DNA of 64,000 nt. It comes from Clavelina lepadiformis (Eukaryota; Chordata; Ascidiacea; Aplousobranchia; Clavelinidae). The notes beneath the pieces were generated by a model. It was not told the DNA's origin, did not search any database, and saw only the letters and a list, made by a program, of their open reading frames with translations. A program made the translations under genes and the position numbers. Shown here piece by piece: positions 2,619-62,568 of this stretch (within the stretch, counting starts at the first letter, position 1; every line of letters begins with the position of its first letter). The stretch spans positions 13,702,001 through 13,766,000 of the forward strand of contig NC_135240.1 in NCBI RefSeq assembly GCF_947623445.1. The letters run 5' to 3'.

Positions 2619-5600
2619 ATGAATATTTTTGCGATTATTTCGTCAATCTTTCTCCTTACACTTCTGGGAGCTCAATCGACTTCTGCAAATGTCCAAGCAT
2701 CAGTTACATCGAATTCCGTTGCTCTGAAGTGGAGCCCCATTTCCGGTGCCGTCAAATACCACGTAAGTTATTAAGTGTCCAAGCTCGCTAATGTTTTCAA
2801 CTTAAACATGTTCTATAAATATTACTGTATAGCCTATATCTTATACTCATTAATTAATTATCGATATATGCCATATTGTTCACCAGGTACTTCTCAGTGA
2901 TGACCAAAACACAGTTGTAGATAGAAACGAAACCCAGTTCGGCACATTGCTTCCAAATACTCTTTATCAAGTCATTATATCTGCCGCCGATGTGAATGGA
3001 ACTAACATCGCAAACATATTACCTCTTGAATACCAATTTAGAACTGGTAAGAAACAAACCAAAGGCGTAGGAAAAATACTGAAAAGCTTTTCTTACAGCT
3101 ACTAATTACATAATTATTTATCAATTAAAACGAATGATCGGTTACTATGTATATGTTAACCATTACAGTTGCTGCTCCTGTAAGCAATCTCCACATCATG
3201 GATGTGACCGAGACCTCTATCCAACTCACTTGGGATATGGACAACGAAACCGATAGTTACCAAGTAATGGTGAAAAACGACACTGGAGCTGAAATGAGTA
3301 AGAAAATTTAGAAGTTCAACACCTACAGTGCTCACCTAACAGCTTAAGTGTAATGCTAGTTCGTGTATGAATACATACCATAACTGATGTAATTGCATGT
3401 TCAGTATATGTAATATTTAATAAAGTATTTGTCAATAAAACTCGCAGGTGCAACTGTTGTACTAGGAGAAGAGGGTGCAACCATTTCTGGATTGCATCGT
3501 ATGAAATTTTACAATTTTGACGTTGCCCCAGTTGGAAGCTCTGGCTTGGGTGAATCAGCCACAATAAGGTTCGTTTTACATTGGAAAGTATGGAAATAAT
3601 GGAAAGATGGAAAATGTTTCGCTATCAAACACTTTGCTAATCTCATTTGTGTGTTTTTATGAATCAATTTAAAACCATGTTTCCTCAAAGTAATTGTTTT
3701 ATCGGTATTATACAGAGCTCGCACTGATGGTTCCGGAATTAAGCTCATTGCCATCTGGCAAGGTAGCCAGGGAATATTCGGTGGAGCTGCAAAAATTTTC
3801 AGGTATCTTTATTTTTAATGAAACAGTTCAATAAAAACAAACAATTAAAACTTAAGCCAGAATTTTAGTGAAAGCTAACAAATAACTTCTTTAGACCGAT
3901 TACAATTCCTAGAGGATCTTATTCCATAAAAGTTCAGCTTCCCTGCCCAGTTTTAGCCGTGAAAGTAAGTAGCAAAGTTTTACATTCAATCTCATTATAA
4001 ACGATTTACATGTTCAACACTAACTTATATAAATACTTATACGAGTTGCGTTTGTATATGAATTAGTTCTGGAATGCTAAACTTGACAAAAAGAACTCGG
4101 TGCCAGCTGATGCAACTTACGTTTTGCGTCAAAGTAAATTGTGGCAAAGAAGAAAGGCTGAAATTGGAATGAACTTCTACTTCACTCAAGAAAATGAAAC
4201 GTAACTCATATATATTGTTTCTAGCCACTAACATATGTAAAATATTTAAGAACATTTTATGCTACTACAGGACTAAACTAAAACTTTCATATTTGCTTTC
4301 AGCACCACGTGTGTCATCTCTGAAGACAATATCAGCCTCGAGTTTGGAGCGGTCGTAGAGGCTCCAAGAGATGCATCAGTAAACACTGGTGATTAATAAG
4401 TTTGTTTTATCTTATTATTTTCCAAAAGTTGTTAATGATAATCAAGCTTGCATATGTGTTAATATTTCTACTTTTACTATCTTGTGCTTTCAGCCATTCC
4501 TCTCAAAGTTGAAGAATGGGGTATCAACGGACTCGTTTCTGTTCTTTTCTCAGAACTATACAACGATACAAACGCAGTAAGTATTGTGGCATTTCATGCA
4601 GTTGTGAAGTAGAAAAAACAGTTTTAGCTTGGTCAATAGAAGTTTCAAAAGTGATCACTGCATAAATTTCAGGATATGACCAAACCAACAAATGGTACCT
4701 GGAACGCCAAGCCGGAATATGGAGACTACGTCATCGCTGTTGATTCTGGAGCTGGATGCACAGGAGGACTTATTTATGACGTAGGGCTATAAGTATTTGT
4801 CATTTTATCGGTTCCTTTACAATCACCAACTAATCTGTATTGGAGTATTGGCATCTTACTTTTCCTAAGTAAAATTTGCTGTTTGATAAATAGTTATACG
4901 CAAGTTACATAAAATTTTAACTTTTGATTATATTCTTCAAAATAATAATTTATGCCTCAACAGTTCCCGCTTGCAAACATAAATCTTTTTTAATAACCAA
5001 CAAATTCTTTCAATAGGCTATCTAAAATGAAAAAAAGCTTTGAAAGTGTGCCCCTGAGCTGGGCAATAGCGATGATTTCTCCTGAATGGTTCTGGTGAAC
5101 AGATCCAAATTCCGACAAAACAAAAAATCCAATAATAAAATATGTGTGCCAATTGCAACTTCCACAAAGGCTCAATCAGTAACAGTGGCTCGAGCGATGA
5201 GGAATCATCGCCGAGTTTAAGTCGTGCAAAGACTTTCCCAAGTCCGAGGATAAAGATTATGGTATCATACCATACTACACAAATAACCGGTTAACTTTTG
5301 TTGGAAAAATGAATTTCAAAATATTTGTAAAAGATGGCAGCGTTTGCTGTTTGGCATAGCGCATAAGGTCACATGCAGTTGTCTATGGCGCTGATTTCAA
5401 AATTGAAAATGGAAAACTGAAAACTTGAAAACTTTTATGGGCCTGTAGAAATTTTGCTGTTTTCTATCCTTTTTATCTGTATATGACCCGATGAATAAGT
5501 ACCCCTTTCAAGTTTTTTTTTGTGAATCATCTATTTCAAAATGTAGACTTTTGTGAATGATTTATCTGCCAAAAAGTAGGCTTATGTTCTTAAAATATGA

Positions 5601-6212
5601 ATATGAGAAGCACAAACAAGTGAAATGAAGAAAGTGCCTCAGCGTGGTTCTAGCAGGCATAACATTACTGAGTTTATCTAGCCAACGTTAATATCCACTA
5701 TCAAGAGACTGTTTATCCTATTTCTTCAAATCAGCTTTTTGTAATAAAGTTTATACATGTAAAGAAACAATAATAATATAGACTCCAAAAGTGAGAATTG
5801 AATTTAAATTGACAGATAAATTTGATGAGTCGCTTATGTTTTTTTCTCTACTGTAATCTACTTATTTCATTTATTTCAGGACGTGTGGGGAATGACAAGG
5901 AAATCATCCGAGGGTATGCCAGGTGCACTTCCTTCAACCGCTTACTTTGTTCAAGATGAAATGCAGTGGCCAAGCAATGAAATAGGTAAAATATTTAGTA
6001 TTACCAGGCAAACTCGTGGAATTAAAAAGATTTTTAATATGTTTTTCTGGTTATCTGCAGCAAAAATATCTTTTGCTTGACTTTTGCTTCTTGTTGCAGG
6101 TTTACTTTATGGATATAACCCAGAGGTATGTGAAGACCGATCAGGAATCACGGCACAAATTATGGTTGGAGGTCCATTTGTGGATGCGGTTTTTGCGGCT
6201 GAAGATGCCTAA
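2619..6212 (+). CDS. Secreted FN3-domain protein, copy 1 (446 aa, 12 coding exons)
   Basis: Exons: 2619-2762, 2887-3046, 3169-3297, 3448-3568, 3716-3802, 3895-3964, 4067-4200, 4303-4388, 4494-4576, 4673-4780, 5880-5985, 6100-6212. All borders are GT-AG and all phases join, giving 446 codons plus TAA. Residues 1-23 are a signal peptide (MNIFAIISSIFLLTLLGAQS...). Residues 24-101 and 102-184 are FN3 domains, with the conserved Trp (VALKW, IQLTW) and Tyr (NTLYQV, KFYNF) positions. Residues about 190-290 (WQGSQGIFGG, then LPCPVLAVKFWNAKL) resemble a family-2-type cellulose-binding module; this is by eye only. The last 130 residues, including DVWGMTRKSSEGMPGALPST and YGYNPEVCEDRSG, are not recognised. 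There are at least seven NxT glycosylation sites, four Cys after the FN3 part and no membrane segment. It is probably an extracellular or matrix protein. The start was chosen because it follows the acceptor and opens the signal peptide. Confidence 0.88.
5179..5275 (+). repeat. tRNA-like SINE copy in intron 10 of copy 1
   Basis: The run AACAGTGGCTCGAGCGATGA resembles a tRNA D-arm with an A-box. It is followed by a perfect hairpin, GCGATGA (5194-5200), GGAA, TCATCGC (5205-5211). Then comes CGAGTTTAAGTCG, which fits a degenerate B-box. A family-specific tail follows: AGTCCGAGGATAAAG and a CATACCATAC end. Related copies lie at 11013-11112, 27943-28040, about 34263-34362, 39091-39188, 45772-45868, 50596-50693 and 57282-57380, with truncated ones at 20290, 32625, 44133 and 55640. 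The SINE call rests on the tRNA-like order of parts and the dispersed copies. Confidence 0.6.
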
Positions 6213-6493: not shown

Positions 6494-6499
6494 AATAAA
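6494..6499 (+). terminator. Poly(A) signal of FN3 gene copy 1
   Basis: AATAAA lies 282 bases after the stop codon and is followed by another AATAAAT. The downstream bases (ATGCAAGAAGTTTATTTAC) are conserved, in shifted form, behind the copy 2 gene (9874-9879, minus) and behind copies 3 to 8 (for example 28397-28402, minus). This supports a real shared 3' end. Confidence 0.55.
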
Positions 6500-10073: not shown

Positions 10074-13000
10074 TTAGGCATCTTCAGCCGCAAAAACAGC
10101 ATCAACAAATGGACCTCCAACCATAATTTGTGCCGTGATTCCTGATCGATCTTCGCATACCTCTGGGTTATATCCATAAAGTAAACCTGCAACAAGAAGC
10201 AAAAGTCAAGTAAAAGATATTTTTGCTGCAGATAACCAGAAAAACATATTAAAAATCTTTTTAATTCCACGAGTTTGCCTGGTAACACTAAATATTTTAC
10301 CCATTTCATTGCTTGGCCACTGCATTTCATCTTGAACAAAGTAAGCGGTTGAAGGAAGTGCACCTGGCATACCCTCGGATGATTTCCTTGTCATTCCCCA
10401 CACGTCCTGAAATAAATGAAATAAGTAGACTACAGCAGATAAAAAACACAAATTAAGCAACTCATCAAATTTATCTGTCAATTTAAATTCAGTTCTCACT
10501 TTTGGAGTCTATATTATTATTGTTTCTTTACATGTATAAACTTTATTACTAAAAGCTGATTTTAAGAAATAGGATAAACAGTCTCTTGATAGTGGATATT
10601 AACGTTGGCTAGATAAACTCAGTAATGTTATGCCTGCTAGAACCACGCTGAGGCACTTTCTTCATTTCACTTTTTTGTGCTTCTCATATTCATATTTTAA
10701 GAACATAAGCCTACTTTTTGGCAGATAAATCATTCACAAAAGTCTACATTTTGAAATAGATGATTCACAAAAAAAAACTTGAAAGGGGTACTTATTCATC
10801 GGGTCGTATACAGATAATAAGGATAAAAAACAACAAAATTTCTACAGACCGATAAAAGTTTTCAAGTTTTCAGTTTTCAATTTCCAATTTTGAAATCAGC
10901 GCCATACACAACTGCATATGACCTTATGCGCTATGCCAAACATCAAACGCTGCCATCTTTTACAACGATTTTGAAATTCATTTTTCCAACAAAAGTTAAC
11001 CGGTTATTTGTGTAGTATGGTATGATACCATAATCTTTATCCTCGGACTTGGAAAAGTCTTTGCACGACTTAAACTCGGCGATGATTCCTCATCGCTCGA
11101 GCCCCTGTTACCCTGTTACTTTTTGTGTTGTCGGAATTTTTATCTGTTCACCAGAACCACTCAGGAGAAATTATCGCTATTGCCTTGCTCAGGGACAAAC
11201 TTTCAAAGCTTTTTTCATATAAGATAGCCTATTGAAAGAATTTGTTGGTTATTAAACAAAATGTGTGCTTACAAGCGGGAACTGATGAGACATAAATTAT
11301 TATTTTGAAGAATATCATCAAAAGTTAAAATTTTATGTAACTTGCGTATAACTATTTACCAAACAGCAAATTGTACTTAGGAAAAGTAAGATGCCAATAC
11401 TCCAATACAAATTAGTTGGCGATAGTAAAGGTACCGATGAAATGATAAACACTTATAGCCCTACGTCATAAATAAGTCCTCCTGTGCATCCAGCTCCAGA
11501 ATCAACAGCGATGACGTAGTTTCCATATTCCGGCTTGGCGTTCCAGGTACCATTTGTTGGTTTGGTCATATCCTGAAATTTATGCAGTGATCACTTTTGA
11601 AACTTCTATTGACCAAGCTTAAACTGTTTTTTCTACTTCACAACTGCATGAAATGCCACAATACTTACTGCGTTTGTATCGTTGTATAGTTCTGAGAGAA
11701 GAACAGAAACGAGTCCGTTGATACCCCATTCTTCAACTTTGAGAGGAATGGCTGAAAGCACAAGATAGTAAAAGTAGAAATATTAACACATATGCAAGCT
11801 TGATTATCATTAACAACTTTTGGAAAATAATAAGATAAAACAAACTTATTAATCACCAGTGTTTACTGATGCATCTCTTGGAGCCTCTACGACCGCTCCA
11901 AACTCGAGGCTGATATTGTCTTCAGAGATGACACACGTGGTGCTGAAAGCAAATATGAAAGTTTTAGTTTAGTCCTGTAGTAGCATAAAATGTTCTTAAA
12001 TATTTTACATATGTTAGTGGCTAGAAACAATATATATGAGTTACGTTTCATTTTCTTGAGTGAAGTAGAAGTTCATTCCAATTTCAGCCTTTCTTCTTTG
12101 CCACAATTTACTTTGACGCAAAACGTAAGTTGCATCAGCTGGCACCGAGTTCTTTTTGTCAAGTTTAGCATTCCAGAACTAATTCATATACAAACGCAAC
12201 TCGTATAAGTATTTATATAAGTTAGTGTTGAACATGTAAATCGTTTATAATGAGATTGAATGTAAAACTTTGCTACTTACTTTCACGGCTAAAACTGGGC
12301 AGGGAAGCTGAACTTTTATGGAATAAGATCCTCTAGGAATTGTAATCGGTCTAAAGAAGTTATTTGTTAGCTTTCACTAAAATTCTGGCTTAAGTTTTAA
12401 TTGTTTGTTTTTATTGAACTGTTTCATTAAAAATAAAGATACCTGAAAATTTTTGCAGCTCCACCGAAGATTCCCTGGCTACCTTGCCAGATGGCAATGA
12501 GCTTAATTCCGGAACCATCAGTACGAGCTCTATATAATACCGATAAAACAATTACTTTGAGGAAACATGATTTTGAATTTATTTATAAAAGCACACAAAT
12601 GAGATTAGCAAAGTGTTTGATGGCGAAACATTTTCCATCTTTCCATTATTTCCATACTTTCCAATGTAAAACGAACCTTATTGTGGCTGATTCACCCAAG
12701 CCAGAGCTTCCAACTGGGGTAACGTCAAAATTGTAAAATTTCATACGATGCAATCCAGAAATGGTTGCACCCTCTTCTCCTAGTACAACAGTTGCACCTG
12801 CGAGTTTTATTGACAAATACTTTATTAAATATTACATATACTGAACATGCAATTACATCAGTTATGGTATGTATTCATACACGAACTAGCATTACACTTA
12901 AGCTGTTAGGTGAGCACTGTAGGTGTTGAACTTCTAAATTTTCTTACTCATGTCAGCTCCAGTGTCGTTTTTCACCATTACTTGGTAACTATCGGTTTCG

Positions 13001-13626
13001 TTGTCCATATCCCAAGTGAGTTGGATAGAGGACTCGGTCACATCCATGATGTGGAGATTGCTTACAGGAGCAGCAACTGTAATGGTTAACATATACATAG
13101 TAACCGATCATTCGTTTTAATTGATAAATAATTATGTTATTAGTAGCTGTAAGAAAAGCTTTTCAGTATTTTTCCTACGCCTTTGGTTTGTTTCTTACCA
13201 GTTCTAAATTGGTATTCAAGAGGTAATATGTTTGCGAGGTTAGTTCCATTCACATCGGCGGCAGATATAATGACTTGATAAAGGGTATTTGGGAGCAATG
13301 TGCCGAACTGGGTTTCGTTTCTATCTACAACTGTGTTTTGGTCATCACTGAGAAGTACCTGGTGAACAATATGGCATATATCGATAATTAATTAATGAGT
13401 ATAAGATATAGGTTATACAGTAATATTTATAGAACATGTTTAAGTTGAAAACATTAGCGAGCTTGGACACTTAATAACTTACGTGGTATTTGACGGCACC
13501 GGAAATGGGGCTCCACTTCAGAGCAACGGAATTCGATGTAACTGATGCTTGGACATTTGCAGAAGTCGATTGAGCTCCCAAAAGTGTAAGGAGAAAGATT
13601 GACGAAATAATCGCAAAAATATTCAT
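10074..13626 (-). CDS. Secreted FN3-domain protein, copy 2 (about 446 aa)
   Basis: Same twelve-exon structure as copy 1, in reverse. Exon 1 is 13483-13626 and encodes the signal peptide and the start of FN3-1; the stop TAA is at 10074-10076. All acceptors and donors checked are intact, and no frame break was seen. The protein is nearly identical to copy 1; one visible change is Ile to Met in the SNEIG/SNEMG segment before the last intron. A long intron of about 1.1 kb before the DVWGM exon carries the SINE, as in copy 1, whereas the array copies have only about 100 bases there. It is transcribed towards copy 1, so transcripts running past their poly(A) sites could overlap in antisense. Confidence 0.86.
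11013..11112 (-). repeat. tRNA-like SINE copy in copy 2
   Basis: Partner of the element at 5179-5275 in the other repeat arm, with the same position in the intron. The hairpin arms survive (GCGATGA against TCATCGC), while the upstream flank has changed. Confidence 0.6.
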
Positions 13627-20400: not shown

Positions 20401-20406
20401 CCTTAC

Positions 20407-28040: not shown

Positions 28041-28595
28041 AGATCTTGTCTTCATGCAAGTTTCGGTGGATATGCCTACACATTGACATTTGTTTATTTT
28101 TGTATTGTAGTATGCAAATTTGAAACTGTTAACCAGGACTATTGCATAAGAAGCATGCTTTGCTCATTCCTTGCTCAAAGGCATTATAGTGGTAGCTCAA
28201 CTGAGAATCAAACCCTATTGGCATTTCTTCAGCACTTGCCATCCCTTTTAATTAATGTGTGTCATGCCAATATACATTTTGGCGTGTAATGTATTGGAAT
28301 TTTTTTTAATAGTCTTGAGGTAAACTAACATCGTAAATGAATATACTAATCACCAAATTTGACAACAGTGCATACAGTAAATATCTTGTGCTTTGTTTTA
28401 TTATTACCCATTTTTGCATTATTCTCTAACGTTAACATTGACGAATTAATATGACATTCATAAGCTAAACGTACAAGGTTAAAGAACAGATGATAAAAGG
28501 TAAATCAACGTAAAACATAGCCTAGTTGAAGCGCATATTAAATATGTTATCTGAGTAAAACACATCTAGAAATACAGAATAATTTATGTAGGAAA

Positions 28596-35070: not shown

Positions 35071-35278
35071 TTTGTTTTATTATTACTCATTTTTTGCAAT
35101 ATTCTTTAACGTTAACAGCATTGACGAATTAATATGACATTCATAAGCTAAACGGACAAGGTTAAAGAACAGACGATAAAAGGTAAATCAGCATAAAACA
35201 AAGCCTAGTTGAAGCGCACATTAAATATGTTATCTGAGTAAAACATATCTGGAAATACAGAATAATTTATGTAGGAAA

Positions 35279-44243: not shown

Positions 44244-44673
44244 CTGACTGTATCAAGAGCTTGGCGCATTTATTACACGGAAATAAGGAGACGTAGATAA
44301 TACAACCTTCCAAAGATTTCCCATAACTATTGACAACAGCATTCATCTCAGCATGACAAACTGCAAGATTGAAAACAACGGTTGATTACAACAATGACAT
44401 GTGATTACAGTTTCTTCTTGTAATTTAAAGAAAAACTAAATGAAAATTAATCATTGGTTAATTTACCAAAGAAAAAATCGAACGCGGATGCATGAACTAA
44501 ATACACTGTCGAATCCTAGACTGTATTTAGAAGCAAGTGTATACGAAGAAACTGGATTCTCATTTGTATATAACATTCTGTACCAGATGCAAATTTAGTT
44601 GGAATTTAGGGTTTAAAAATATCTCATGGGTGACCCTAAAAATTTTTTTCTTTGTTTAACGCATCCTTTTACC
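44244..44673 (-). pseudogene. dCMP deaminase fragment in array unit of copy 6
   Basis: Practically identical to 32736-33165: open active-site exon at 44244-44360 (CHAE, PCNKC), then the decayed end of the previous exon. Duplicated with the 11.5-kb block. Confidence 0.7.
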
Positions 44674-46781: not shown

Positions 46782-49379
46782 TTATGCATCTTCAGCCGCA
46801 AAAACAGCATCAACAAACGGACCTCCAACCATGACTTGTGCCGTAATTCCTGATCGATCTTCACATACCTCTGGATTATATCCATAAAGGAAGCCTGCAA
46901 CAGCAACAACAACAACAATTAATAGCAAAACTTTGAAGTTATAGGCTAAATTAATCATTAAAACTATAATATTATTGTTAACTACCAATAAATTTTATTT
47001 TGTTTCGAATCTAATGCTATTGCCAGTTTTTTACCCATTTCATTGCTTGGCCACTGCATTTCATCTTGAACAAAGTAAGCGGTTGAAGGAAGTGCACCTG
47101 GCATACCCTCGGATGATTTCCTTGTCATTCCCCAAACGTCCTGAAATGAAAACGAGCAATGAACATCTCATCATAGAAGAGTTTCTGCATTAGTAATAGA
47201 GCACTAAAGTGTCCAAAAGTGATAACTTACAGCGAAAAGGAGCCCTCCAGTGCATCCAGCTCCGGAATCTACAGCGATCACGTACGTTCCATAGTCTGGC
47301 TTGGCATTCCAGGTACCATTTGTTGGTTTAGTCATATCCTAAAGCATCCACCAATCAGTTAGTTGAAAAAAAATTTGTAAATTTTGTCAATCGATTATTT
47401 TAGAACGTTGCTTACAGCATTGGTGTCATTGTAAATTTCTGATACAAGGATTGAGACCATTCCGCCGGATCCTACAAGTGTTTCAGTCGTGCCGAGCCAT
47501 TCATTTATAATGACCGGAACAGCTAACAAATACAAATAGTAATACATGTTGTTCTCTGACTCACCAAGACTGATGTTAAACAAAGACTGCAATGTTAAAT
47601 TCAACTTTTAGATATTTCAACTTGTTAACAATAAATACCGGTGTTCGTTGAAGTGGTTCTGGCTGCTTCCATACTCACTCCAAATTCAACATTTATATCC
47701 TCACCCGAAATGGTACAAGTTGTGCTAAAAAAGTTCGGTCAGTTCAATCAATTTAAAACTGCGTATATAGATGAAGTAATGTTTTCGTTATATTAAATAA
47801 ACTCTTACGTTTCATTTTCTTGGGTGAAGTAGAAGTTCATTCCAATTTCAGCCTTTCTTCATTGCCACAATTTACTTTGACGCAAAACGTAAGTTGCATC
47901 AGCTGGCTCCGAGTTCTTTTTGTCAAGTTTAGCATTCCAGAACTATTTTAGGTAAAAAAAAAATAAAGCTGTTGTTAGAACAGTTTGTTTTTCTTTTTTA
48001 AGAAAGTTGTTCCATTTCTGTAGCGTTTTTTAAATAGCCATCTCTCCATTTCTAGTCACTTTTACAGCCAACACGGGGCAAGGAAGATGAATTTTCATAG
48101 CATAAGGTTCAGTTGGAATGTTAATTGGTCTGATAAATTAAACATCATTGATCACTTGCTGTGTCATGCATTTTATTAAAGTAAAATCGAATAGGCTTTG
48201 GTAAAGATACCGATACCATGTACTTTGCCAGCCATTTGTCAGATCATATGGTTTTAAGATGATTTCATAAGGTGGTGAACGAAAATTACCTGAAAATAGT
48301 TGCGGAACTGCCGAAGACACCTTGACTTCCTTGCCAGACACCATTGAGTTTTATTCCGGAGCCATCTGTACGAGTTCTGTTTAAAACGAACCCGTGTAAA
48401 ACATAACTTAACTTAAAATAATAACACAGATGATCGCTTAACATTTATTATCGCAGAACTTGCTTTGATAAAAAATGGGTTTTATATACCTGATCATTGC
48501 TGTGTCTCCCAGGCCGGAGCTTCCGACTGGTGTGACGTAGATCTTGTAAAATTGCATGCCCTGCAATCCAGAGATTGAAGCACTGTGCTCGCCCAAGGTA
48601 ACACTTGCACCTGGAAGGATAAAACCCGTTTAAGAATCTCGACAACAACAATCGTTAAAGCTTCTTTTCCCCAAGGACCGAGGTGAAATTGTCAAATATC
48701 TATACAATGTCAAACTATAATTTTAACGAGAACTTTAACTTACTTATGACAGAATCGGTTTCGTTTTTCACCATAACTTCGTAACTATCGGTTTCGTTGT
48801 CCATATCCCAAGTGAGTTGGATGGAAGACTCGGTCACATCCATGACTTGGAGATTGCTTACAGGAGCAGCAACTATAGGTTCGAAGAAAACGTTTATACA
48901 GTTTTGTTATGATATGTAAAACTTTGTGGACGAGTTTTAATCACGTAAACAAGCTTGTTGAAATAAAGCTTATCTTACCAGTTCTAAATTGGTATTCAAG
49001 AGGTGCTATGTTTGCCATAATAGTGCCATTGACATCAGCAGCTGAGATAATGACTTGATAAAGAGTATTTGGGAGCAATGTGCCGAACTGGGTTTCGTTT
49101 CTGTCTACAACTTGATTTTGATCGTCACTGAGAAGTACCTGAGAAGTTTATAGGGTGATAAGTCTTTAATTTTTAAAAAAGTTTCAGATCAACTAAAAGT
49201 GATTTCTTAAACAAAAATAGCTCACTCTTGGAACTTACATGATACTTTTCTGCATCAGGAATTTCTTTCCATTTCAATGCAACCGTGTTGGATGTTGCTG
49301 ATGCTTGCACATTTCCGGCAGATGCATCTCCGATAAGAGCAACAAGGAAGAGAGATGAAATAATCGCAAAAATATTCAT
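46782..49379 (-). pseudogene. FN3 secreted-protein gene, copy 6, with premature stop
   Basis: Near-identical twin of copy 4 and sharing its TGA in exon 7 (47859-47861). It differs by a few substitutions, for example KEIPDAEKYH for KEIPEAEKYH at the end of exon 1. Splice sites are intact. Any product would contain the signal peptide, both FN3 domains and part of the next domain. Confidence 0.8.
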
Positions 49380-51600
49380 AATGCTGCAAAAAAATCAAAA
49401 TTATTATAACCTGAAAAATTCCTTCCATTAAATAGTTTATATTATCAAATAGAACGTCGGACCAAATAAAAGCTTTAACAAAATTTTTACCTTTATTCCA
49501 ATAAAACAGTTTCACCACACAAACAAATAACTTAGTTATCACACTATATTGAAAGAAGAAAATAGAAAAAAAGTCGTTAGTACAACTTTACTCCTTAAGT
49601 TCATTTTTCTTTACTGAACCTTAACTTAATGGAAACTAAAATACTTTTCCAGGTTTTGTTAGCTTTTGCATAGGCACAACTGACACAAACAACAAACTTA
49701 AAAATTGCCAAACATGTAACAAATTTGCCTCTAATTATGACAAAGTGGTGAAAAGTGTGACGTCACCATGTGGAGACAACAAGCTGGATGGCTGTCCTTA
49801 AAATCAAATGTGATAGCAATAGTTATAACCACCTAACGTTTTTTGGATCTAATACGACTTTGCATGTAGGCGATGTTTATTTTCAGCATATTATTGTTAG
49901 AAGTAACAATACGTGTACTAAGAAAGTATTTGTCGCAAAAGACCCGCTTTTTTCTGAAACTACGTTGATACCTTTTAATTAAATGGCGTGCAATTATATG
50001 ATTTTGTTATGTACTCTGATAAAGGATTTACGCAAAGTCCGAAACATATTAGTCTTTGAGTAAATATTATGACTAAATCTGCTTTCATTTTGTTATATGT
50101 AAAAATTTAATACATGAAGTATTTGTGTTTTTTACAATAATTATACCCGTGTCTTATATCATACCTTCACTACTGTAAACATGTGTAAATGGAATTATAT
50201 CAAATTTCAGTATGGATATAAACAAATAGGAGTTTTTGTAAAAAAATACAAAAACAAAAACAATTTACAAGAAATTAGAGAACTGGAAAAAGCTTAACAA
50301 CGAATAAACAAACCTTATTAATTGTAATTGCATGTAATTGCAGAAATTCTTGAAACGGGATATTTCCAAAAAAAGGCAATAAAATATATATGGAAATATT
50401 TGCCTTGACAAGTTCTTGTTTAAACTAACGCAATTTCTTCAATTCTTGTTTGTATATCTTTGGTTTTCTAATTTTCTATTTAATAGTTTGCGAAGTTTTG
50501 TTTCCTGTTTTCAAAATAAAATTTCAGTTTGTTAAATTCTGTACTGGAATTTTATAGCGCAAGCGTTATTTTATGTTATAAATCTCCAAGTTTTTAGTAT
50601 GGTATGACATCAGAAATTTTATCCTCGGACCGAGAAAAGATTTGGCACGACCCAAACTCGGCAATGATCCAGCATTGCTCGAGCCCCGGTAACAGATCTT
50701 GTCTTCATGCAAGTTTCGGTGCAGGATATGCCTACACATTGAAATTTGTTTATTTTTGTATTGTATTGTATTGTGCAAATTTAAAACTGTTAGCCAGGAC
50801 TATTGCATAAGAAGCATGCTTTGTTCATTCCTTGCTCAAAGGCATTATAGTGGTAGCTCAACTGAGAACCAAACCCTATTGGCATTTCTTCAGCACTTGC
50901 CATCCATTTTAATTAGTATGTGTCATGCCAATATAACTCTTGGCGTGTAATGTAATGGAATTTTTGTTAATAGTCTTGAGGTAAACTCAGTAAACCTTTT
51001 AGTCTATAGACGGTTTTAGAAATAGATTTGTTAACACCAATAACCATATGTTTTCATACTTTTAATTTGCATGCAATAGTCATTTTATGGTATTTCGGTT
51101 GTTATGGAGTGAAAACATTAAAGCTTTTCGGAAAAATCCACTTTGTACTTGACAATCTCCAATATCTAACAATTACATGATTTTTTTTGTCAAATGGAGT
51201 CAAAGCTAACAAATGTCTTCATGAAATAAACAATTATTTGCAAAAACAACTTTTTGTGCGTCAACCGCCGGTTTAAATGTAAGCTTACGCCTTTTGGAAG
51301 CTCTCGTAGGGTATAGTAACTGACATGAATCTTATGTGTACATCGTAAATGAATATACTAATAACCAAATTTGACAACAGTGCATACAGTAAATATCTTG
51401 TGCTTTATTTTATTATTACTCATTTTTGCAATATTCTCTAACGTTAACATTGACGAATTAATATGACATTCATAAGCTAAACGTACAAGGTTAGAGAACA
51501 GCTGATAAAAGGTAAATCAACGTAAAACATAGCCTAGTTGAAGCGCATATTAAATATGTTATCTGAGTAAAACACATCTGGAAATACAGAATAATTTATG
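49380..51600. other. Short array spacer between copies 6 and 7
   Basis: Twin of 37875-40102, with the same 1.8-kb absence, the palindrome at 49758-49765 and the SINE at 50596-50693. No gene was recognised. Confidence 0.5.
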
Positions 51601-51607
51601 TAGGAAA

Positions 51608-54240
51608 TTATGCATCTTCAGCCGCAAAAACCGCATCAACAAAGGGACCTCCAACCATGACTTGTGCCGTGATTCCTGATCGATCTTCACATACCTCTGG
51701 GTTATAACCATAAAGGAAGCCTGCAGCAGCAACAACAACAATTAATGGCTCTACTTTAAAGGTATAGGCTAAATTAATCATTAGAACTATAACATTATTG
51801 TTAGCTACCAATAAATTTTAATTTGTTTCGAATCTAATGCTATGGCCAGTTTTTTACCCATTTCATTGCTTGGCCACTGCATTTCATCTTGAACAAAGTA
51901 AGCGGTTGAAGGAAGTGCACCTGGCATACCCTCGGATGATTTCCTTGTCATTCCCCACACGTCCTGAAATGGAAACGAGCAATGAACATCTCATCATAGA
52001 AGAGTTTCTGCATTAGTAATAGAGCACTAAAGTGTCCAAAAGTGATAACTTACAGCGAAAAGGAGCCCTCCAGTGCATCCAGCTCCGGAATCAACAGCGA
52101 TCACGTACGTCCCATAGTCTGGCTTGGCATTCCAGGTACCATTTGTTGGTTTAGTCATATCCTAAATCATCCACCAATCAGTTAGTTGAAAACAAATAAG
52201 AAAGAAATATTATAAAATATTATGTGTATTTATTCAAACATTATTTTGTTAAATCGATTATTTTAGAACGTTGCTTACAGCATTGGTGTCATTGTAAATT
52301 TCTGATACGAGGATTGAGACCATTCCGCCGGATCCTACAAGTGTTTCAGTCGTGCCGAGCCATTCATTTAAGATGACCGGAACAGCTAACAAATACAAAT
52401 AGTAATACATGTTGTTCTCTGACTCACCAAGACTGATATTAAACAAAGACAGCAATGTTAAATTCAACTTTTAGATATTTCAACTTGTTAACGATAAATA
52501 CCGGTGTTCGTTGAAGTGGTTCTAGCTGCTTCCATACTCACTCCAAATTCAATATTTATATCCTCACCCGAAAAGGTACAAGTTGTGCTAAAAACGTTCG
52601 GTCAGTTCAATCAATTTGAAACTGTGTATATAGATGAAGTAATGTTTTCGTTATATTAAATAAACTCTTACGTTTCATTTTCTTGGGTGAAGTAGAAGTT
52701 CATTCCAATTTCAGCCTTTCTTCTTTGCCACAATTTACTTTGACGCAAAACGTAAGTTGCATCAGCTGGCTCCGAGTTCTTTTTGTCAAGTTTAGCATTC
52801 CAGAACTATTTTTAGGTAAAAGAAAAATAAAGCTGTTGTTAGAACAGTTTGTTTTTCTATTTTAAGAAATTTCTTCCATTTCTGTAGCGTTTTTTAAATA
52901 GCCATCTCTCTATTTCTACTCACTTTTACAGCCAACACGGGGCAAGGAAGATAAATTTTCATAGCATAAGGTCCAGTTGGAATGCTAATTGGTCTGATAA
53001 ATTAAACATCATTGATCACTGGCTGTGTCATGCATTTTATTAAAGTAAAATCGAATAGGCTTTGGTAAAGATACAGATACCATGTACTTTGCCAGCCATT
53101 TGTCAGATCATATGGCAATAAAATGATCTCATAAGGTGGTGAACGAAAATTACCTGAAAATAGTTGCGGAACCGCCGAAGACACCTTGACTTCCTTGCCA
53201 GACACCATTGATTTTTATTCCGGAGCCATCTGTACGAGTTCTGTTTAAAACGAACCCGTGTAAAACATAACTTAACTTAAAATAATAACACAGATGATCG
53301 CTTAACATTTATTATCGCAGAACTTGCTTTGATAAAAAATGGGTTTTATATACCTGATCATTGCTGTGTCTCCCAGGCCGGAGCTTCCGACTGGTGTGAC
53401 GTAGATCTTGTAAAATTGCATGCCCTGCAATCCAGAGATTGAAGCACTGTGCTCGCCCAAGGTAACACTTGCACCTGGAAGGTTAAAACCCGTTTAAGAA
53501 TCTCGACAACAACAATCGTTAAAGCTTCTTTTCCCCAAGGACCGAGGTGAAATTGTCAAATATCTATACAATGTCAAACTACAATGTTAATGAGAGCTTT
53601 AACTTACTTATGACAGAATCGGTTTCGTTTTTCACCATGACTTCGTAACTATCGGTTTCGTTGTCCATATCCCAAGTGAGTTGGATGGAAGACTCGGTCA
53701 CATCCATGACTTGGAGATTGCTTACGGGAGCAGCAACTATAGGTTCGAAAAAAACGTTTATACAGTTTTGTTGTGATATGTAAAACTTTATTGACGAGTT
53801 TTAATCACGTAAACAAGCTTGTTCAACTAAAGCTTATCTTACCAGTTCTAAATTGGTATTCAAGAGGTGCTATGTTTGCCATAATAGTTCCATTGACATC
53901 GGCCGCTGAGATAATGACTTGATAAAGAGTATTTGGGAGCAATGTGCCGAACTGGGTTTCGTTTCTGTCTACAACTTGATTTTGATCGTCACTGAGAAGT
54001 ACCTGAGAAGTATAGGGTGATAAGTCTTTAATTTTTATAAAAGCTTTAGATCAACTAAAAGTGATTTCTTAAAAAAAATAGCTCACTCTGGGAACTTACA
54101 TGATACTTTTCTGCTTCAGGAATTTCTTTCCATTTCAATGCAACCGCGTTGGATGTTGCTGATGCTTGCACATTTCCGGCAGATGCACTTCGGATAAGAG
54201 CAACAAGGAAGAGAGATGAAATAATCGCAAAAATATTCAT
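51608..54240 (-). CDS. Secreted FN3-domain protein, copy 7 (about 453 aa)
   Basis: Reads as an intact array-type gene. In exon 8 it has TTTCTFSGED where copy 3 has TTTCTISGED, at the spot where copy 5 is frameshifted. The 3' half follows copy 5, but about 53215-53560 (exon 5 to intron 3) follows copies 4 and 6, and the 5' end returns to the copy 5 type. It is therefore a mosaic, most simply by gene conversion. The signal peptide keeps the ALIRSAS form. One His to Tyr change occurs in the KIHLPCP segment of exon 6. Confidence 0.82.
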
Positions 54241-55749
54241 AATGCTGCGAGAAAAATTAAAATTATTATAACCTGAAAAATTCCTTCCATTAAATAGTTT
54301 ATATTATCAAATAGAACGTCGGACCAAATAAATGCTTTAACAAAATTTTTACCTTTATTCCAATAAAACAGTTTTACCACACAAACAAATAACTTAGTTA
54401 TCACACTAGATTGAAAGAAAAAAATATGAAAAAAAGTCGTTAGTACAACTTTACGCCTTAAGTTCATTTTTCTTTACTGAACCTTAACTTTATGGAAACT
54501 AAAATACTTTTCCAGGTTTTGTTAGTTAACCTAAGCTTTTGCATAGGCACAACTGACTGGTCTGTCGAAATACATTGAACCTTTGCAATATATATATTCT
54601 CAGGTTATTTTTTCTTAGATGTAATTTGGCCTATTATCTTCAACACTTAGCACTTATTTTCTTTTTAATTCCTCCATATTCTTAAATACAAGTTACAGAG
54701 AAAGAATGGTGTTACGTAGGCAGATAACGTAATGTTTAACCTAGCTTGAAACGATAAATTTTGACTACAGCTGTAAATTATATATACTAATTCATATAAG
54801 TAGGAATAATTTTCTTTTCGAGTGTAAATATACCTTAATAATATAAATAATTAGCTTGCCAACGTTTTCAAGATGACGTAACTGCGTACGTTTAATTTGT
54901 CGTTTTAAGTCATACTTGAGATAGCGGATCATCATCAATGGGTGCCTAAGGGCAATACCGTGAATAAGATTTCATTACTTTTAAAATGTTTTGTATTTAT
55001 TTATTCGTTTGTTCGTTTAGGGTGCGTATACACGAACAGGGGGGACCGAGGCGACCGCCTCGCTCGCCTCACCCTAAAGCCAATACTGGCTGAAGTAACC
55101 AAATGCTATTTGTTTCTTCAGTTGAATTGTGTTCAAATTTTGCTAATGGTTAACAAAAACCTAGCGTCCTTAGCAACAGTGGCTTAGAATGAATTTTGCG
55201 CGCCAGAGACAACTTGAACTATTTCGCTTCTCCTTTTTCTCTTATAAATGAATAAATTGAGCCAGTTGCATATTTAGAGTTGTGTTAAAGGGGGAGCAAA
55301 ACATTTTAAAGGCTGGGTCCAAAATTCCCGCGTTCAGCAACTCACCAAATATTGCGGATTTTATGCCTCAAAAATTGTTTAAAGCGCCTCGAAATAAAAT
55401 CTATGCTCATATGTATTTGCAAAATAGCTAAAAATTTGTTCAACTTTACTATCAGAAACACAGCTAACCGGGTTCAATTCTAAGTTGTACTACCGTTGTA
55501 ATGCATTATAGTTAAGTATGAACGACGCTTTCTACTGTTCAGTAGTCCTGATGAGCTGTCCCAAATTCGTGCAATACAAAAAAATCATAAAACCAAACAC
55601 CAAAAATAAATTTGTATTCACTAGAACTTGCAAGAATACAAGTTCGAGCAGTGGAAAATTATCATTAAGTTTAAGTCGTGCATCGTCTTTCTTCAGTCCG
55701 AAGATAAAGGTTGTGATAGCATGCCATATACCATACCAGGTTGCCTTAC

Positions 55750-56190
55750 CTGACTGTATCAAGAGCTTGGCGCATTCATTGCACGGAAATAAGGATCGAG
55801 ACGTAGATAATATACAGCCTTCCAAAGATTTCCCATAACTATTGACAACAGCATTCATTTCAACATGACAAACTGCAAGATTGAAAACAACGGTTGATTA
55901 TAACAATGACATATGATTACAGTTTCCTCTTGTAACTTAAAGAAAAACTAAGTGAAAATTGTTTATTGGTTGATATACCAAAGAAAAAAACGAACGCGGA
56001 TGCATGAACTAAATACACTGTCGAATCCTAGACTGTATTTAGAAGCAAGTGTATACGAGGAAACTGGATTCTCATTTGTATATAACATTCTGTACCAGAT
56101 GCAAATTTAGTTGGAATTTAGGGTTTAAAAATATGTTATGGGTGACCCTAAAAACTTTTTTCTTTGTTTAACGCATCCTTTTACCTTCAA
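55750..56190 (-). pseudogene. dCMP deaminase fragment in array unit of copy 8
   Basis: Active-site exon 55750-55872 is six bases longer than the others (GCILSTSRSLFPC in place of [11 protein letters not shown]), and the zinc-site Ala is changed (CHVE). Together with the missing exons this marks it as non-functional. The end of the previous exon is at about 56145-56190. Confidence 0.65.
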
Positions 56191-58290
56191 GAAAGCAATT
56201 AAAGCCTACAGCATTTGCCCAAAATGCACCACCACGATCATTTTATTTTGAAGTTGTGTCTGACCAATTTCAAGTTGGTTGCCGTGTTGCAGTCGCCATC
56301 CTAACCATGACACGGTGGCAGGGTATATTTCGGGTCTATTCTGACAAAAAATACTTTATTCTGTCTTTTATTAAAACACAAAATTAAAAATTGCCAAACA
56401 TGTAACAAACTTGCCTCTAATTATGAAAAAAGTGGTGAAAAGTGTGACGTCACCATGTGAAGTCAACAAGCCTGATAGCTGTCCTTAAAATCAAATGTGA
56501 TAGCAATAGTTATAACCACCTAACGTGTTTTGGATCCAATGCGGCTTTGTATGTAAGCGAAGTTTATTTTCAGCATATTATTGTTTCAAGGAACAATACG
56601 TGTACTAAGAAAGTATTTGTCGCAAAAGATCCGCTTTTTTTTTAATCTACGTTGATACCTTTTAATTAAATGGCGTGTAATTATACGATTTTGTTATGTA
56701 TTCTGATAAAGGCTTTATGCAAAGTCGGAAACATGCTAGTCTTTGAGTAAATATTATGACTAAATCTGCTTTCATTTTGTTATATGTAAAAATTTAATAC
56801 ATGAAGTATTTGTGTTTTTTACAATAATTATACCCGTGTCTTATATCATACCTTCACTACTGTAAACATGTGTAAATGGAATTATATCAAATTTCAGTAT
56901 GGATATAAACAAATAGGAGTTTTTGTAAAAACAAAAAAAAACAAAAACAATTTACAAGAAATTAGAGAACTGGAAAAAGCTTAACAACAAATAAACAAAC
57001 CTTATTAATTGTAATTGCATGTAATTGCAGAAATTCTTGAAACGGGATATTTCCAAAAAAAGACAATAAAATATATATGGAAATAGTTGCTTTGACAAGT
57101 TCTTGTTTAAACTAACGCAACTTCTTTAATTCTTGTTTTTATATCTTTGGTTTTCTAATTTTCTATTTAATAGTTTGCGAATTTTTGTTTCCTGTTTTCA
57201 AAATAAAATTTCAGTTTGTTAAATGCTGTACTGGAATTTTATAGCGCAAGCGTTATTTTATGTTATAAATCTCCGAGTTTTTAGTATGGTATGACATCAG
57301 AAATTTTATCCTCGGACCGAGAAAAGATTTGGCACAACCCAAACTCGGCAATGATCCAGCATCGCTCGAGCCACGATAACAGATCTTGTCTTCATGCAAG
57401 TTTCGGTGCAGGATATGCCTACACATTGAATTTTGTTTATTTTTGTATTGTATTGTGCAAATTTGAAACTGTTAGCCAGGACTATTGCATAAGAAGCATG
57501 CTTTGTTCATTCCTTGCTCAAAGGCATTATAGTGGTAGCTCAACTGAGAACCAAACCCTATTGGCATTTCTTCAGCACTTGCCATCCATTTTAATTAGTA
57601 TGTGTCATGCCAATATAACTCTTGGCGTGTAATGTAATGGAATGTTGTTTTTAATAATCTTGAGGTAAACTCAGTAAACCTTTTAGTCTATAGACGTCTT
57701 TAGAAATAAATTTGTTACAGCCAATAACCATATGTTTTCATACTTTTAATTTGCATGCAATAGTCATTTTATGGTATTTCGGTTGTTATGGAGTGAAAAC
57801 ATTAAAGCTTTTCGGAAAAATCCACTGTGTACTTGACAATCTCCAATATCTAACAATTACATGATTTTTTTGTCAAATGGAGTCAAAGCTAACAAATGTC
57901 TTCATGAAATAAACAATTATTTGCAAAAACAACTTTTTGTGCGTCAACCGCCGGTTTAAATGTAAGCTTACGCCTTTTGGAAGCTCTCGTAGGGTATAGT
58001 AACTGACATGAATCTTATGTGTACATCGTAAATGAATATAATAATAACCAAATTTGACAACAGTGCATACAGTAAATATCTTGTGCTTTGTTTATTATTA
58101 CTCATTTTTGGCAATATTCTTTAACTTTAACATTGACGAATTAATATGACATTCATAAGCTAAACGGACAAGGTTAAAGAACAGATGATAAAAGGTAAAT
58201 CAACATAAAACAAAGCCTAGTTGAAGCGCATATTAAATATGTTATCTGAGTAAAACACATCTGGAAATACAGAATAATTTATGTAGGAAA
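56191..58290. other. Array spacer, unit of copy 8
   Basis: Long-type spacer with the palindrome at 56445-56452, the AT-rich block, the SINE (57282-57380) and the 350-base block. The 113-codon frame at 57291-57632 runs across the SINE and is taken as chance. The poly(A) region of copy 8 lies near 58085. Confidence 0.5.
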
Positions 58291-61200
58291 TTATGCATCT
58301 TCAGCCGCAAAAACCGCATCAACAAAGGGACCTCCAACCATGACTTGTGCCGTAATTCCTGATCGATCTTCACATACCTCTGGGTTATATCCATAAAGGA
58401 AGCCTGCAGCAACAACAACACTTAATAGCACAACTTTGAAGGTACAGGCTAAATTAATCATTAGAAATATAATATTATTGTTAGCTACCAATAAATTTTA
58501 ATTTGTTTCGAATCTAATGCTATTGCCAGTTTTTTACCCATTTCATTGCTTGGCCACTGCATTTCATCTTGAACAAAGTAAGCGGTTGAAGGAAGTGCAC
58601 CTGGCATACCCTCGGATGATTTCCTTGTCATTCCCCAAACGTCCTGAAATGGAAACGAGCAATGAACATCTCATAATAGAAGAGTTTCTACATTAGTAAT
58701 AGAGTACTAAAGTGTCCAAAAGTGATAACTTACAGCGAAAAGGAGCCCTCCAGTGCATCCAGCTCCGGAATCAACAGCGATCACGTACGTCCCATAGTCT
58801 GGCTTGGCATTCCAGGTACCATTTGTTGGTTTAGTCATATCCTAAAGCATCCACCAATCAGTTAGGTGAAAAAAAATTTAAAAATATATTATAAAATATT
58901 ATGTATATTTATTCAAAAATTATTTTGTCAATCGATTACACAATGTAAAAAAAAAAAAAAAAATTTTTGTTCCCAGGTTCTAATCGATTTTTCCCTATTG
59001 CTTAGGACCAGTAAGTGTCGAAAATCAACTTTATTTGATATAAACTTTGTTTTTGTGGTTTAGAGACTGAAATTCTAAAATCGCAATATTTTTGAGAAAA
59101 GATATCAAAGATATGGCTAAAGAGCATCCAAGATGGATGTTAATCACTTTTAAATGTTAATATACTCTGCAATATTTGCTCATTCAGTCCACCTGAAAGA
59201 AAACTATGAGAATGTTAAGACTTTGTTGAATGTTTTAAAGTACGATCAATATAACTGGGAAGTAATTGGGGACTTTAAAATGGTAGCGTTTTTGATGAGT
59301 ATGCAAGGGGGGTTCACCAAGTATCCTTGCCACCTTTGCCTTTGGGATAGTAGGGCTACCACAGAACACTACAAAAAGCAAATATGGCCAAAACGAAACG
59401 AATTTGTTGTTGGAGAGAAAAACGTAAAGCAAACTCGGTTGATTAACCCAAACAAAGTGCTTATGCCACCCCTTCACATAAAACTTGGGCTTATAAAGCA
59501 ATTTGTGAAATCATTGGATAAAGGTGGTGACGCATTCCAATTTCTCAAGAACTTGTTTCCTAAACTATCAGAAGCTAAAGTAAAAGCTGGTTTATTTATT
59601 GGCCCACAAATTAAAAAGATTCTCAAGTCGAATGATTTTATCCAAATGCTTAATGATGTTGAAAAGAAGGCTTGGGATAGCTTTGCAGATGTGGTGAATG
59701 GGTTCTTGGGCAATAACAAGGAAGATAACTATGCCGAACTCGTTGCCAATTTGGTAAAGTCTTATGAAAACATGGGGTGCAGAATGTCCATGAAAGTACA
59801 TATGCTTGATGCTCACTTGGACGAGTTTAAAGACAATATGGGAGCTTATTCAGAAGAACAAGGGGAGCGATTCCATCAAGACATAAAATATTTTGAAAGG
59901 AGATACCAAGGGCAATATAATGAAAGCATGATGGGAGAATATGTCTGGGCCTTGATGCGGGAAAGTGATGTAGAGTACAAAAGAAAATCCCGCAAAACAT
60001 CCCATTTTTAACTGATTTTATACTTGAACTGTTTTAGCCTGAAATATTTATTTGGTTTTGCATTTAACATTTAATGATGGTATTGATTCGGATACAGTTA
60101 ATACATTTATGTGCAAATTCCCATGTACCAAATGCCTGTGCTTTGTGATTTGATTTTAATAACAAAAATTCTAATTCGTTGCCTGTTAATTATGCAAACT
60201 CAGAATTAACCCTTTGCCAGACAGAAAAATAGCCAAAAGTTGGCTGTAATTTGCTTTGCGGAAAAGCAATCGATAGCCTACGACTAACGCGTCAGAATAT
60301 TTAGTAAATACATTGATAGAATATAACTTCTTAGTCGATGCCAAGCGATTAAAAATGGACTTACAGCGATCAAAGACAGTTTGGTAAATATCCATTTCCT
60401 TTAGGGTAAATCAGTATAACCATGCACAATATTGCACATACCAGCAAATTCAAAAAATTACTCTCCTAACCACAAAATCAATGTTTGGAATGAACTATAT
60501 TGATTTTTGGAAGTTTCTAGGTGAGAGAGATCAGGAAATATCAATTAGAACCCGGGAACAAAAATCGTGTTACACGGTGTTATTTTAGAACGTTGCTTAC
60601 AGCATTGGTGTCATTGTAAACTTCTGATACGAGGATTGAGACCATTCCACCGGATCCTACAAGTATTTCAGTCGTGCCGAGCCATTCATTTATGATGACC
60701 GGAACAGCTAACAAATGCAAATATTAATACATGTTGTTCTCTGACTCACCAAGACTGATGTTAAACCAAGACTGCAATGTTAAATTCAACTTTTAGGTAT
60801 TTCAACTTGTTAACGATAAATACCGGTGTTCGTTGAAGTGGTTCTAGCTGCTTCCATACTCACTCCAAATTCAACATTTATATCCTCACCCGAAATGGTA
60901 CAAGTTGTGCTAAAAACGTTCGGTCAGTTCAATCAATTTAAAACTGCGTATATAGATGAAGTAATGTTTTCGTTATATTAAATAAACTCTTACGTTTCAT
61001 TTTCTTGGGTGAAGTAGAAGTTCATTCCAATTTCAGCCTTTCTTCTTTGCCACAATTTACTTTGACGCAAAACGTAAGTTGCATCAGCTGGCACCGAGTT
61101 CTTTTTGTCAAGTTTAGCATTCCAGAACTATTTTTAGGTAAAAGAAAAATAAAGCTGTTGTTAGAACAGTTTATTTTTCTTTTTTAAGAAAGTTCTTCCA

Positions 61201-62568
61201 TTTCTGTAGCGTTGTTTAAATAGCTATCTCTCTATTTCTACTCACTTTTACGGCCAACACGGGGCAAGGAAGATGAATTTTCATAACATAAGGTCCAGTT
61301 GGAATGCTAATTGGTCTGATAAATTAAACATCATTGATCACTGGCTGTGTCATGCATTTTATTAAAGTAAAATCGAATAGGCTTTGGTAAAGATACAGAT
61401 ACCATGTACTTTGCCAGCCATTTGTCAAATTATAGGGCTATAAGATCATCTCATAAGGTGGTGAACAAAATTTACCTGAAAATAGTTGCAGAACCGCCGA
61501 AGACACCTTGACTTCCTTGCCAGACACCATTGAGTTTTATTCCGGAGCCATCAGTACGAGTTCTGTTTAAAACGAACCCGTGTAAAACATAAATTAACTT
61601 AAAATAATAACACAGATGACCGCATAAAATTTAGTATCGCAGAACTTGCTTTGATAAAAAATGAGCTTTATATACCTGATCATTGCTGTGTCTCCGAGGC
61701 CAGAGCTTCCGACTGGTGTGATGTAGATCTTGTAAAATTGCATGCCCTGCAATCCAGAGATTGAAGCACTGTGCTCACCCAAGGTAACACTTGCACCTGG
61801 AAGGATAAAACCCGTTTAAGAATCTCAAAAACAACAATCGTTAAAGCTTCTTTTCCCCGAGGACCGAGGTGAAATCGTCAAATAACTATACAATGTCAAA
61901 CTATAATTTTAACGAGAGCTTTAACTTACTTATGACAGAATCGGTTTCGTTTTTCACCATGACTTCGTAACTATCGGTTTCGTTGTCCATGTCCCAAGTG
62001 AGTTGGATGGAAGACTCGGTCACATCCATGACTTGGAGATTGCTTACAGGAGCAGCAACTATAGGTTCGAAAAAAACGTTTATACAGTTTTGTTATGATA
62101 TGTAAAACTTTGTGGACGAGTTTTAATCGCGTAATCAAGTTTGTTCAACTAAAGCTTATCTTACCAGTTCTAAATTGGTATTCAAGAGGTGCTATGTTTG
62201 CCATAATAGTTCCATTGACATCGGCCGCTGAGATAATGACTTGATAAAGAGTATTTGGGAGCAATGTGCCGAACTGGGTTTCGTTTCTGTCTACAACTTG
62301 ATTTTGATCGTCACTGAGAAGTACCTGAGAAGTTTATAGGGTAATAAGTCTTTAATTTTTAAAAAAGTTTTAGATCAACTAAAAGTGATTTCTTAAAGAA
62401 AGCAAATAGCTCACTCTGGGAACTTACGTAATACTTTTCTGCATCAGGAATTTCTTTCCATTTCAATGCAACCGCGTTGGATGTTGCTGATGCTTGCACA
62501 TTTTCGGCAGATGCACCTCCGATAAGAGCAACAAGGAAGAGAGATGAAATAATCGCAAAAATATTCAT
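58291..62568 (-). CDS. Secreted FN3-domain protein, copy 8, with a transposon in an intron
   Basis: Array-type gene, about 453 residues, signal peptide ...ALIGGASAEN and exon 1 ending in KYY. All exon borders are present and no frame break was seen; the Arg codon that is TGA in copies 4 and 6 is intact. The intron between the exon ending YNDTNA and the exon starting DMTKP is enlarged to about 1.75 kb by a DNA transposon (58939-60579), inserted about 20 bases from the donor. The gene could still be spliced. It is the most divergent array member and the first in transcription order. Confidence 0.8.
58939..60579 (+). mobile_element. DNA transposon, CAC...GTG ends, TTA target duplication (CMC-like)
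   Basis: The borders are exact because five paralogous genes show the empty site. CGATTATTTTAG there becomes CGATTA-[element]-TTATTTTAG here, giving a 3-bp TTA duplication (58936-58938 and 60580-60582). The left end starts CACAATGTAA and the right end, reversed, CACCGTGTAA. Both continue to TTTTTGTTCCC and GGTTCTAAT, and weaker inverted similarity extends to about 135 bases on each side (TTTTGTGGTT). CAC ends and a 3-bp duplication fit the CMC (CACTA/Mirage/Chapaev) group, but this is inference. A run of about 17 A interrupts the left end. Confidence 0.8.
59154..60011 (+). CDS. Transposase-like protein, C-terminal 285 aa
   Basis: A single open frame inside the transposon. It contains WEVIGDFKMVAFLMSMQGGF, YPCHLCLWDSRA, LMPPLHIKLGLIKQFVKSLD, FIGPQIKKIL, GCRMSMKVHMLDAHLDEF and EEQGERFHQDIKYFERRYQG. 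These are the conserved blocks of a long uncharacterised, transposase-like protein family common in arthropod and other animal genomes. The family normally has a further N-terminal half ending in a SIPIAHSVHL-type motif; here the frame begins at IFAHSVHLKENY, so that half is missing. Cys-x-x-Cys and His residues near residues 59-62, together with the acidic and His positions, suggest metal binding. The frame is still open, so the loss is recent or the copy is a young internal-deletion derivative. Confidence 0.75.
   Translation: MLIYSAIFAHSVHLKENYENVKTLLNVLKYDQYNWEVIGDFKMVAFLMSMQGGFTKYPCHLCLWDSRATTEHYKKQIWPKRNEFVVGEKNVKQTRLINPNKVLMPPLHIKLGLIKQFVKSLDKGGDAFQFLKNLFPKLSEAKVKAGLFIGPQIKKILKSNDFIQMLNDVEKKAWDSFADVVNGFLGNNKEDNYAELVANLVKSYENMGCRMSMKVHMLDAHLDEFKDNMGAYSEEQGERFHQDIKYFERRYQGQYNESMMGEYVWALMRESDVEYKRKSRKTSHF

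Follow-up and report, generated by a model that had tools for sequence, protein, structure and literature searches.

Eight clustered genes for putatively secreted FN3 proteins in the ascidian Clavelina lepadiformis, with an orphan C-terminal half and exon-confined identity between subfamilies

A 64,000-nucleotide stretch of the genome of Clavelina lepadiformis (NC_135240.1, positions 13,702,001 to 13,766,000), here called the window, contains an array of eight related genes, c1 to c8. We propose that they encode a secreted glycoprotein family that would act as an extracellular-matrix or tunic protein, as follows. The N-terminal half would consist of two FN3 domains and the C-terminal half of two orphan modules of ~130 residues each. 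Each orphan module would be a binding or assembly unit; its conserved residues are a pair of Cys and three Trp, in the order W-C-W-W-C. The locus would have been enlarged through inverted and tandem duplication, and exon-sized gene conversion, together with purifying selection, would have preserved the likeness of the module-core exons, 7 and 11, across old subfamilies. The array would then raise the dose of a single product instead of generating variants. For this joint reading, that is, a secreted matrix or tunic family with paired orphan modules and a conversion-homogenised dose array, we estimate a probability of about 0.45. That these two exons are near-identical across diverged subfamilies, up to the exon edges, is a new observation.

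Copy c1 was spliced by hand, and its exons were then transferred to the other seven copies. The c1 gene (2619..6212, + strand) is intact, with an open reading frame of 446 residues in 12 exons: 2619-2762, 2887-3046, 3169-3297, 3448-3568, 3716-3802, 3895-3964, 4067-4200, 4303-4388, 4494-4576, 4673-4780, 5880-5985 and 6100-6212. All eight copies have 12 exons, with GT-AG at every internal edge. The other seven lie on the - strand. Intact frames are found in c2 (10074..13626, 446 residues), the inverted partner of c1, and in c3 (28596..31228), c7 (51608..54240) and c8 (58291..62568), each of 453 residues. Copies c4 (35279..37874) and c6 (46782..49379) carry an in-frame TGA at the same codon of exon 7 (36358-36356 and 47861-47859, respectively), the result of an identical AGA-to-TGA change, and c5 (40103..42736) has a one-base insertion, a frameshift, in exon 8. 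Start codons on this strand are at 13626, 31228, 37874, 42736, 49379, 54240 and 62568 for c2 to c8 in order. The eight copies described in an earlier note on this DNA are real and its limits exact, from the c1 ATG at 2619 (+) to the c8 ATG at 62568 (-). Its account of eight genes sharing one structure holds for the hydrophobic leader, the two FN3 domains, as tested on c1, and the common motif, but only five of the eight (c1, c2, c3, c7 and c8) are intact. An AG lies four bases before all eight ATGs (GCAGCATTATG), so the 5′ ends are likely spliced or trans-spliced. Two subfamilies are distinguished, c1/c2 (98.4% amino acid identity) and c3-c8, with 79-80% identity between them as measured for c3, c7 and c8.

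The hydrophobic leader was judged by eye to be common to all eight copies, and from it the proteins are presumed to be secreted. Pfam fn3 matches c1 in two stretches (E 2.1e-16, 60.3 bits against a cut-off of 25), bearing out the two FN3 domains proposed earlier; fn3_2 is also matched, below threshold. Of the two kinds of domain that the earlier note had expected in the c1 protein, the profile search found FN3 and no carbohydrate-binding CBM_2 match. There are six to nine N-glycosylation sequons in c1, c3 and two full-length relatives outside the window, D1 and D2.

The quoted motif of the family, WQGSQGIFGG...LPCPVLAVKFWNAKL, is present in the eight copies with small changes, and the C-terminal part matches no family in Pfam or in the PDB sequences, prokaryote, viral and plasmid collections, in line with the earlier note, which could not place it. 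In the PDB, 47 sequences were matched at E up to 1, nearly all FN3 proteins or FN3-derived binders, and the best matched stretches of c1 end by residue 192. Residues 186-446 had no PDB sequence match in either a single-protein or a profile search. In two prokaryote-genome scans for a bacterial relative of the C-terminal half, none of the 137 and 133 pattern matches was confirmed; nor was any of the 36 in viral contigs, and the plasmid collection had no match. With isolated modules as queries, only D2 module 1 of the eight sequences had any Pfam match at E up to 10, and its three matches were all below cut-offs. NCBIfam gave two weak matches for the full proteins c1, c3, D1 and D2; the better of them, at E 0.012, falls within the FN3 part of D1.

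We suggest that the C-terminal half is divided as follows. Module 1 would comprise exons 5-8 of c1 (3716..4388, +; residues 186-310), with W199-C231-W239-W263-C285, and module 2 exons 9-12 (4494..6212, +; residues 311-446), with W319-C367-W377-W404-C420. The W-C-W-W-C positions of both modules are invariant in c1, c3, D1 and D2; a further Trp of module 2, W348, is not common to D1 and D2. The spacing of the Cys residues in c1 is 54 in module 1 and 53 in module 2, and each pair would form a disulphide. FWNA lies just inside the start of exon 7 and DVWGM just inside that of exon 11, and both exons begin in phase 0. A profile alignment of module 1 with module 2 scored 36.6 at gap cost 5, where shuffles gave 22.1 ± 4.1 and 9 of 1000 reached the score. 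The positive control, FN3-1 with FN3-2, was reached by 0 of 1000 and 0 of 300 shuffles. It is likely, with moderate support, that the two modules are related by duplication.

The earlier note had assigned the middle domain to the family-2 cellulose-binding modules (CBM2), and the organism gives that proposal some appeal. Tunicates are described in PMC3390340 as the sole cellulose-making exception among animals. A bacterial-type cellulose synthase model matches two adjacent exons on contig C9 (E 5e-29 and 0.002), and a GH6 stretch lies ~1.6 kb downstream on the same strand (Pfam, 32 bits against a cut-off of 27). Cellulose synthase combined with GH6 is a tunicate hallmark. This tunicate-type gene (C9:12553001-12562500, - strand) supports the tunicate origin that the earlier note had considered for the DNA. 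The whole-genome family search for GH6 found nothing at E 0.001, with the controls silent too, though the domain is present at the C9 locus; perhaps it was missed on account of short exons. COX1, used as a test of the mitochondrial code, had no match in the genome.

The rival proposal holds that module 1, or both modules, is a diverged CBM2-type module that ties the protein to the cellulose of the tunic while FN3 serves as a spacer, as in bacterial cellulases. In some of these CBM2 does adjoin FN3. CBM2 modules bind cellulose or chitin, and their fold is a beta-sandwich on whose surface Trp residues form a flat row. Like the present modules, CBM2 has ~100-130 residues with conserved Trp, and FWNA followed by LWQ...IGMNFYF recalls, to our eye, the CBM2 spacing. 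A home-made CBM2 profile was built from 16 sequences (four of six PDB sequences and 12 of 14 plasmid matches). Its best stretches in c3 (236-291, 1.2 bits) and c8 (237-291, 0.1 bits) fall in this FWNA/LWQ region, in the register of the earlier note, with WNAKL aligned with a CBM2 Trp. The alignment of module 1 with the CBM2 profile was reached by 3 of 300 and 14 of 1500 shuffles at gap cost 11, 21 of 1500 at gap cost 7 and 29 of 1000 at gap cost 5. However, that alignment is in another register, of 22 columns (residues 191-212), and is one of ten comparisons; module 2 against CBM2 gave nothing (577 and 629 of 1500 shuffles reach it). The C-terminal halves of c1, c3, c8, D1 and D2 score -0.3, 2.7, 0.9, -1.4 and -0.9 bits on the CBM2 profile, within the range of shuffles, of which 40, 14, 39, 92 and 68 of 400 do as well, and FN3 stretches score about as high (D1 35-94, 0.8 bits). 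Pfam CBM_2 at E up to 10 matches neither c1 nor the eight isolated modules nor the genome; the genome negative, from an exon-by-exon search, is weak because the GH6 search missed a domain present at its locus. Neither prokaryote scan yielded a relative of the modules. A scan of viral contigs intended to gather further CBM2 sequences gave eight pattern matches, none confirmed.

The order of Cys and Trp differs too. In five of seven CBM2 sequences Cys residues lie near both ends and enclose the Trp residues (C7 and C106 of 109 in 1exg); the other two, 3ndy and 2rtt, are cut fragments. In the present modules the Cys residues lie inside, in an order that is not that of CBM2, contrary to the Trp, Gly and Cys order claimed for the middle domain earlier. 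CBM2 membership by sequence was rejected by Pfam, by the hidden Markov model with shuffles, by profile-profile alignment and by hhalign. CBM49 was considered as well, given VWGMTRKS of module 2, which we take to recall a CBM49 motif; there is no match in these genes, and the exon-by-exon search gave two weak ones elsewhere in the genome, the best with E 0.157. We regard a diverged CBM2 as improbable. It is possible that the C-terminal half has a CBM-like fold without sequence similarity.

Evidence for homogenisation of the module cores comes from comparing c1 with c3. For exons 1-12 the identities are 70, 90, 88, 71, 75, 74, 99, 59, 66, 87, 99 and 91%. Exon 7 (4067..4200, +), the module 1 core (FWNAKLD...LWQRRKAEIGMNFYF), is 98.5% identical to its c3 counterpart, and exon 11 (5880..5985, +), the module 2 core (DVWGMTRKSSEGM...YFVQDEMQWPSNE), 99.1%. 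In both, identity drops at the exon edges; the introns flanking exon 7 have 62 and 66%. Aligned parts of the introns in general have 62-75%; the exception is intron 10, whose 93% is not meaningful, with 90 bases of c3 aligned into 1,099 of c1. At fourfold sites, exons 7 and 11 have 1 difference in 28. The ten others have 60 in 141 (Fisher 2e-5), and the least similar six, exons 1, 4, 5, 6, 8 and 9, have 41 in 65 (3e-8), both P values being after the fact because the two exons were picked once the identities had been seen. A permutation of run lengths is independent of that choice. Among 1335 sites the longest identical runs measure 104 in exon 11 and 84 in exon 7, and the permutation maximum is 59 (n = 2000).

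The simplest account of these identities would be exon-sized gene conversion bounded by diverged introns; conversion via spliced complementary DNA would be a bolder one. A constraint on silent sites, through splicing or RNA structure, might keep the exons alike instead, and the fact that identity ends at the exon edges speaks in its favour. Against this, the same exons have only 66-73% identity between c1 or c3 and D1 or D2, and the constraint is not seen there. We consider it unlikely, and prefer conversion.

Purifying selection between the subfamilies is shown by a ratio of nonsynonymous to synonymous divergence (dN/dS) of 0.19 (c1-c3: dN 0.124, dS 0.642), and in c1-c3 and c1-c8 every part examined likewise has a ratio <1. 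This speaks against the earlier suggestion of recognition by rapid diversification. Tandem genes with FN3 domains and leaders, in a copy number that together with the broken copies suggests ongoing turnover, are what one might expect of surface-recognition or immune proteins diversifying between individuals. Yet the low ratio, and module cores that are homogenised rather than diversified, make that explanation hard to credit. Because of the same two features, we propose that the array provides dose and not recognition diversity. A matrix or tunic role is our best guess, weakly suggested by the leader, FN3, sequons and organism.

Several points weigh against the joint reading of a homogenised matrix family with paired modules. 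The alignment between modules depends on the gap cost and is not significant at stricter values: 94 of 1500 shuffles reach it at gap cost 7, and 536 of 1500 and 105 of 300 at gap cost 11. In addition, hhalign found nothing between module 1 and module 2, though it is weak with so few sequences because its FN3-1/FN3-2 control reached only 54%. Exons 2, 3, 10 and 12 are intermediate (87-91%, c1-c3), which means that constraint and conversion are mixed. Within subfamilies dN exceeds dS in a few tiny comparisons of one to three changes each, as follows: FN3-2 of c1-c2 and the leader in c3-c8 and c3-c4 have three nonsynonymous and no synonymous changes, and exon 7 of c3-c8 has one and none. Lastly, passages from two proteome papers on the tunic and the house name no such protein.

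The family extends beyond the window. A whole-genome search with c1 at E up to 10, which gives counts that are lower bounds, confined the exon matches of the C-terminal half to one chromosome: the cluster, two full-length genes and a relic. The full-length members, D1 (465 residues) and D2 (456 residues), lie ~320 kb from the cluster and reproduce its 12-exon structure, phases included. Identity is 42-46% with the window copies and 41% between D1 and D2. We consider the family to be beyond chance because this gene structure recurs in D1 and D2 and dN/dS between subfamilies is low. The relic, 2.2-2.5 kb left of the window (C1:13699490-13699823, -), has a piece of exon 10 (E 2e-9) and one of exon 12, weak on its own (E 0.09), and is probably a decayed further copy. 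A search with the D2 C-terminal half added no further places in the genome. Weak matches to c1 elsewhere (E 0.03 to 2.7), on C1 near 4.66, 4.88 and 4.91 Mb, C3 near 5.62 and 5.73 Mb and C9 near 13.3 Mb, involve the leader or FN3 part only. The C3 matches belong to near-identical FN3 loci (5617001-5626000 and 5726001-5735000) in opposite orientation ~100 kb apart. In stretches of 9-9.5 kb, none of three other FN3 loci, these two included, matched residues 200-446 at E 1.

Animal FN3 proteins such as fibronectin, tenascin and the receptor phosphatases resemble the present family in FN3 domains and leader peptide; here, in contrast, no other known domain was found, and the C-terminal 260 residues match nothing in PDB. 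Among tunicate proteins, the oikosins of the Oikopleura house are secreted, duplicated matrix proteins, of which roughly half lack known domains or similarity, according to PMC3390340. The likeness is by description only, and the words fn3 and fibronectin are absent from the main text of that paper. No title or abstract opening returned by a literature search concerned this family. Concerted evolution, in which interlocus gene conversion keeps paralogues alike, is reported for the CEA family (PMC7042247) and the gibbon opsins (PMC3213168); the two tracts found here differ from these cases in being single exons whose flanking introns align poorly.

The proteins that organise the sole animal-made cellulose matrix are poorly known. 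The orphan C-terminal half, which in this analysis occurred only after two FN3 domains, offers a definite candidate for expression and binding studies. Identity that stops at exon edges, in turn, provides a clean natural example in which to ask what limits short gene-conversion tracts. It is tempting to go further, to a tunicate-specific W-C-W-W-C module, paired behind two FN3 domains, that defines a new class of cellulose-associated matrix protein, kept uniform by exon-by-exon conversion, possibly templated by spliced RNA, as introns and other exons drift. We put this forward as a long shot.

The inverted pair c1/c2 has 98% identity across 2.5 kb and 97% across another 1.0 kb. Copies c3-c8 are arranged head-to-tail in units of ~11.5 kb with two genes per unit. 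A tandem segmental duplication (28328-47376 against 39835-58879; overall 28328..58879) has 98.5% identity over 19,074 aligned bases. Given the same in-frame TGA in c4 and c6, the broken copy was probably itself duplicated along with the 11.5 kb unit. So high an identity across 19 kb might also suggest that the tandem units are partly an assembly artefact, with haplotypes placed in series. We find this very unlikely, as the copies differ by stops, a frameshift and an insert, and the c1/c2 subfamily and the distant members stand apart. Moreover, the published record, if it describes the same assembly, gives a quality value of 67.4 from HiFi reads.

Four similar open frames lie on the - strand, at 20147-20548, 32473-32877, 43981-44385 and 55532-55897, three of them inside duplicated units between the FN3 genes. 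The first, the only one scanned, contains a cytidine/deoxycytidylate deaminase zinc-binding region (Pfam PF00383, E 3e-11). Intron 9 has 1,759 bases in c8 against 117 in c3, and the c8 insert includes a 285-codon open frame (59154-60011, +) without a match in Pfam, possibly a piece of a DNA transposon, which it resembles. Finally, a 126-codon open frame (8105-8485, -) lies between c1 and c2.

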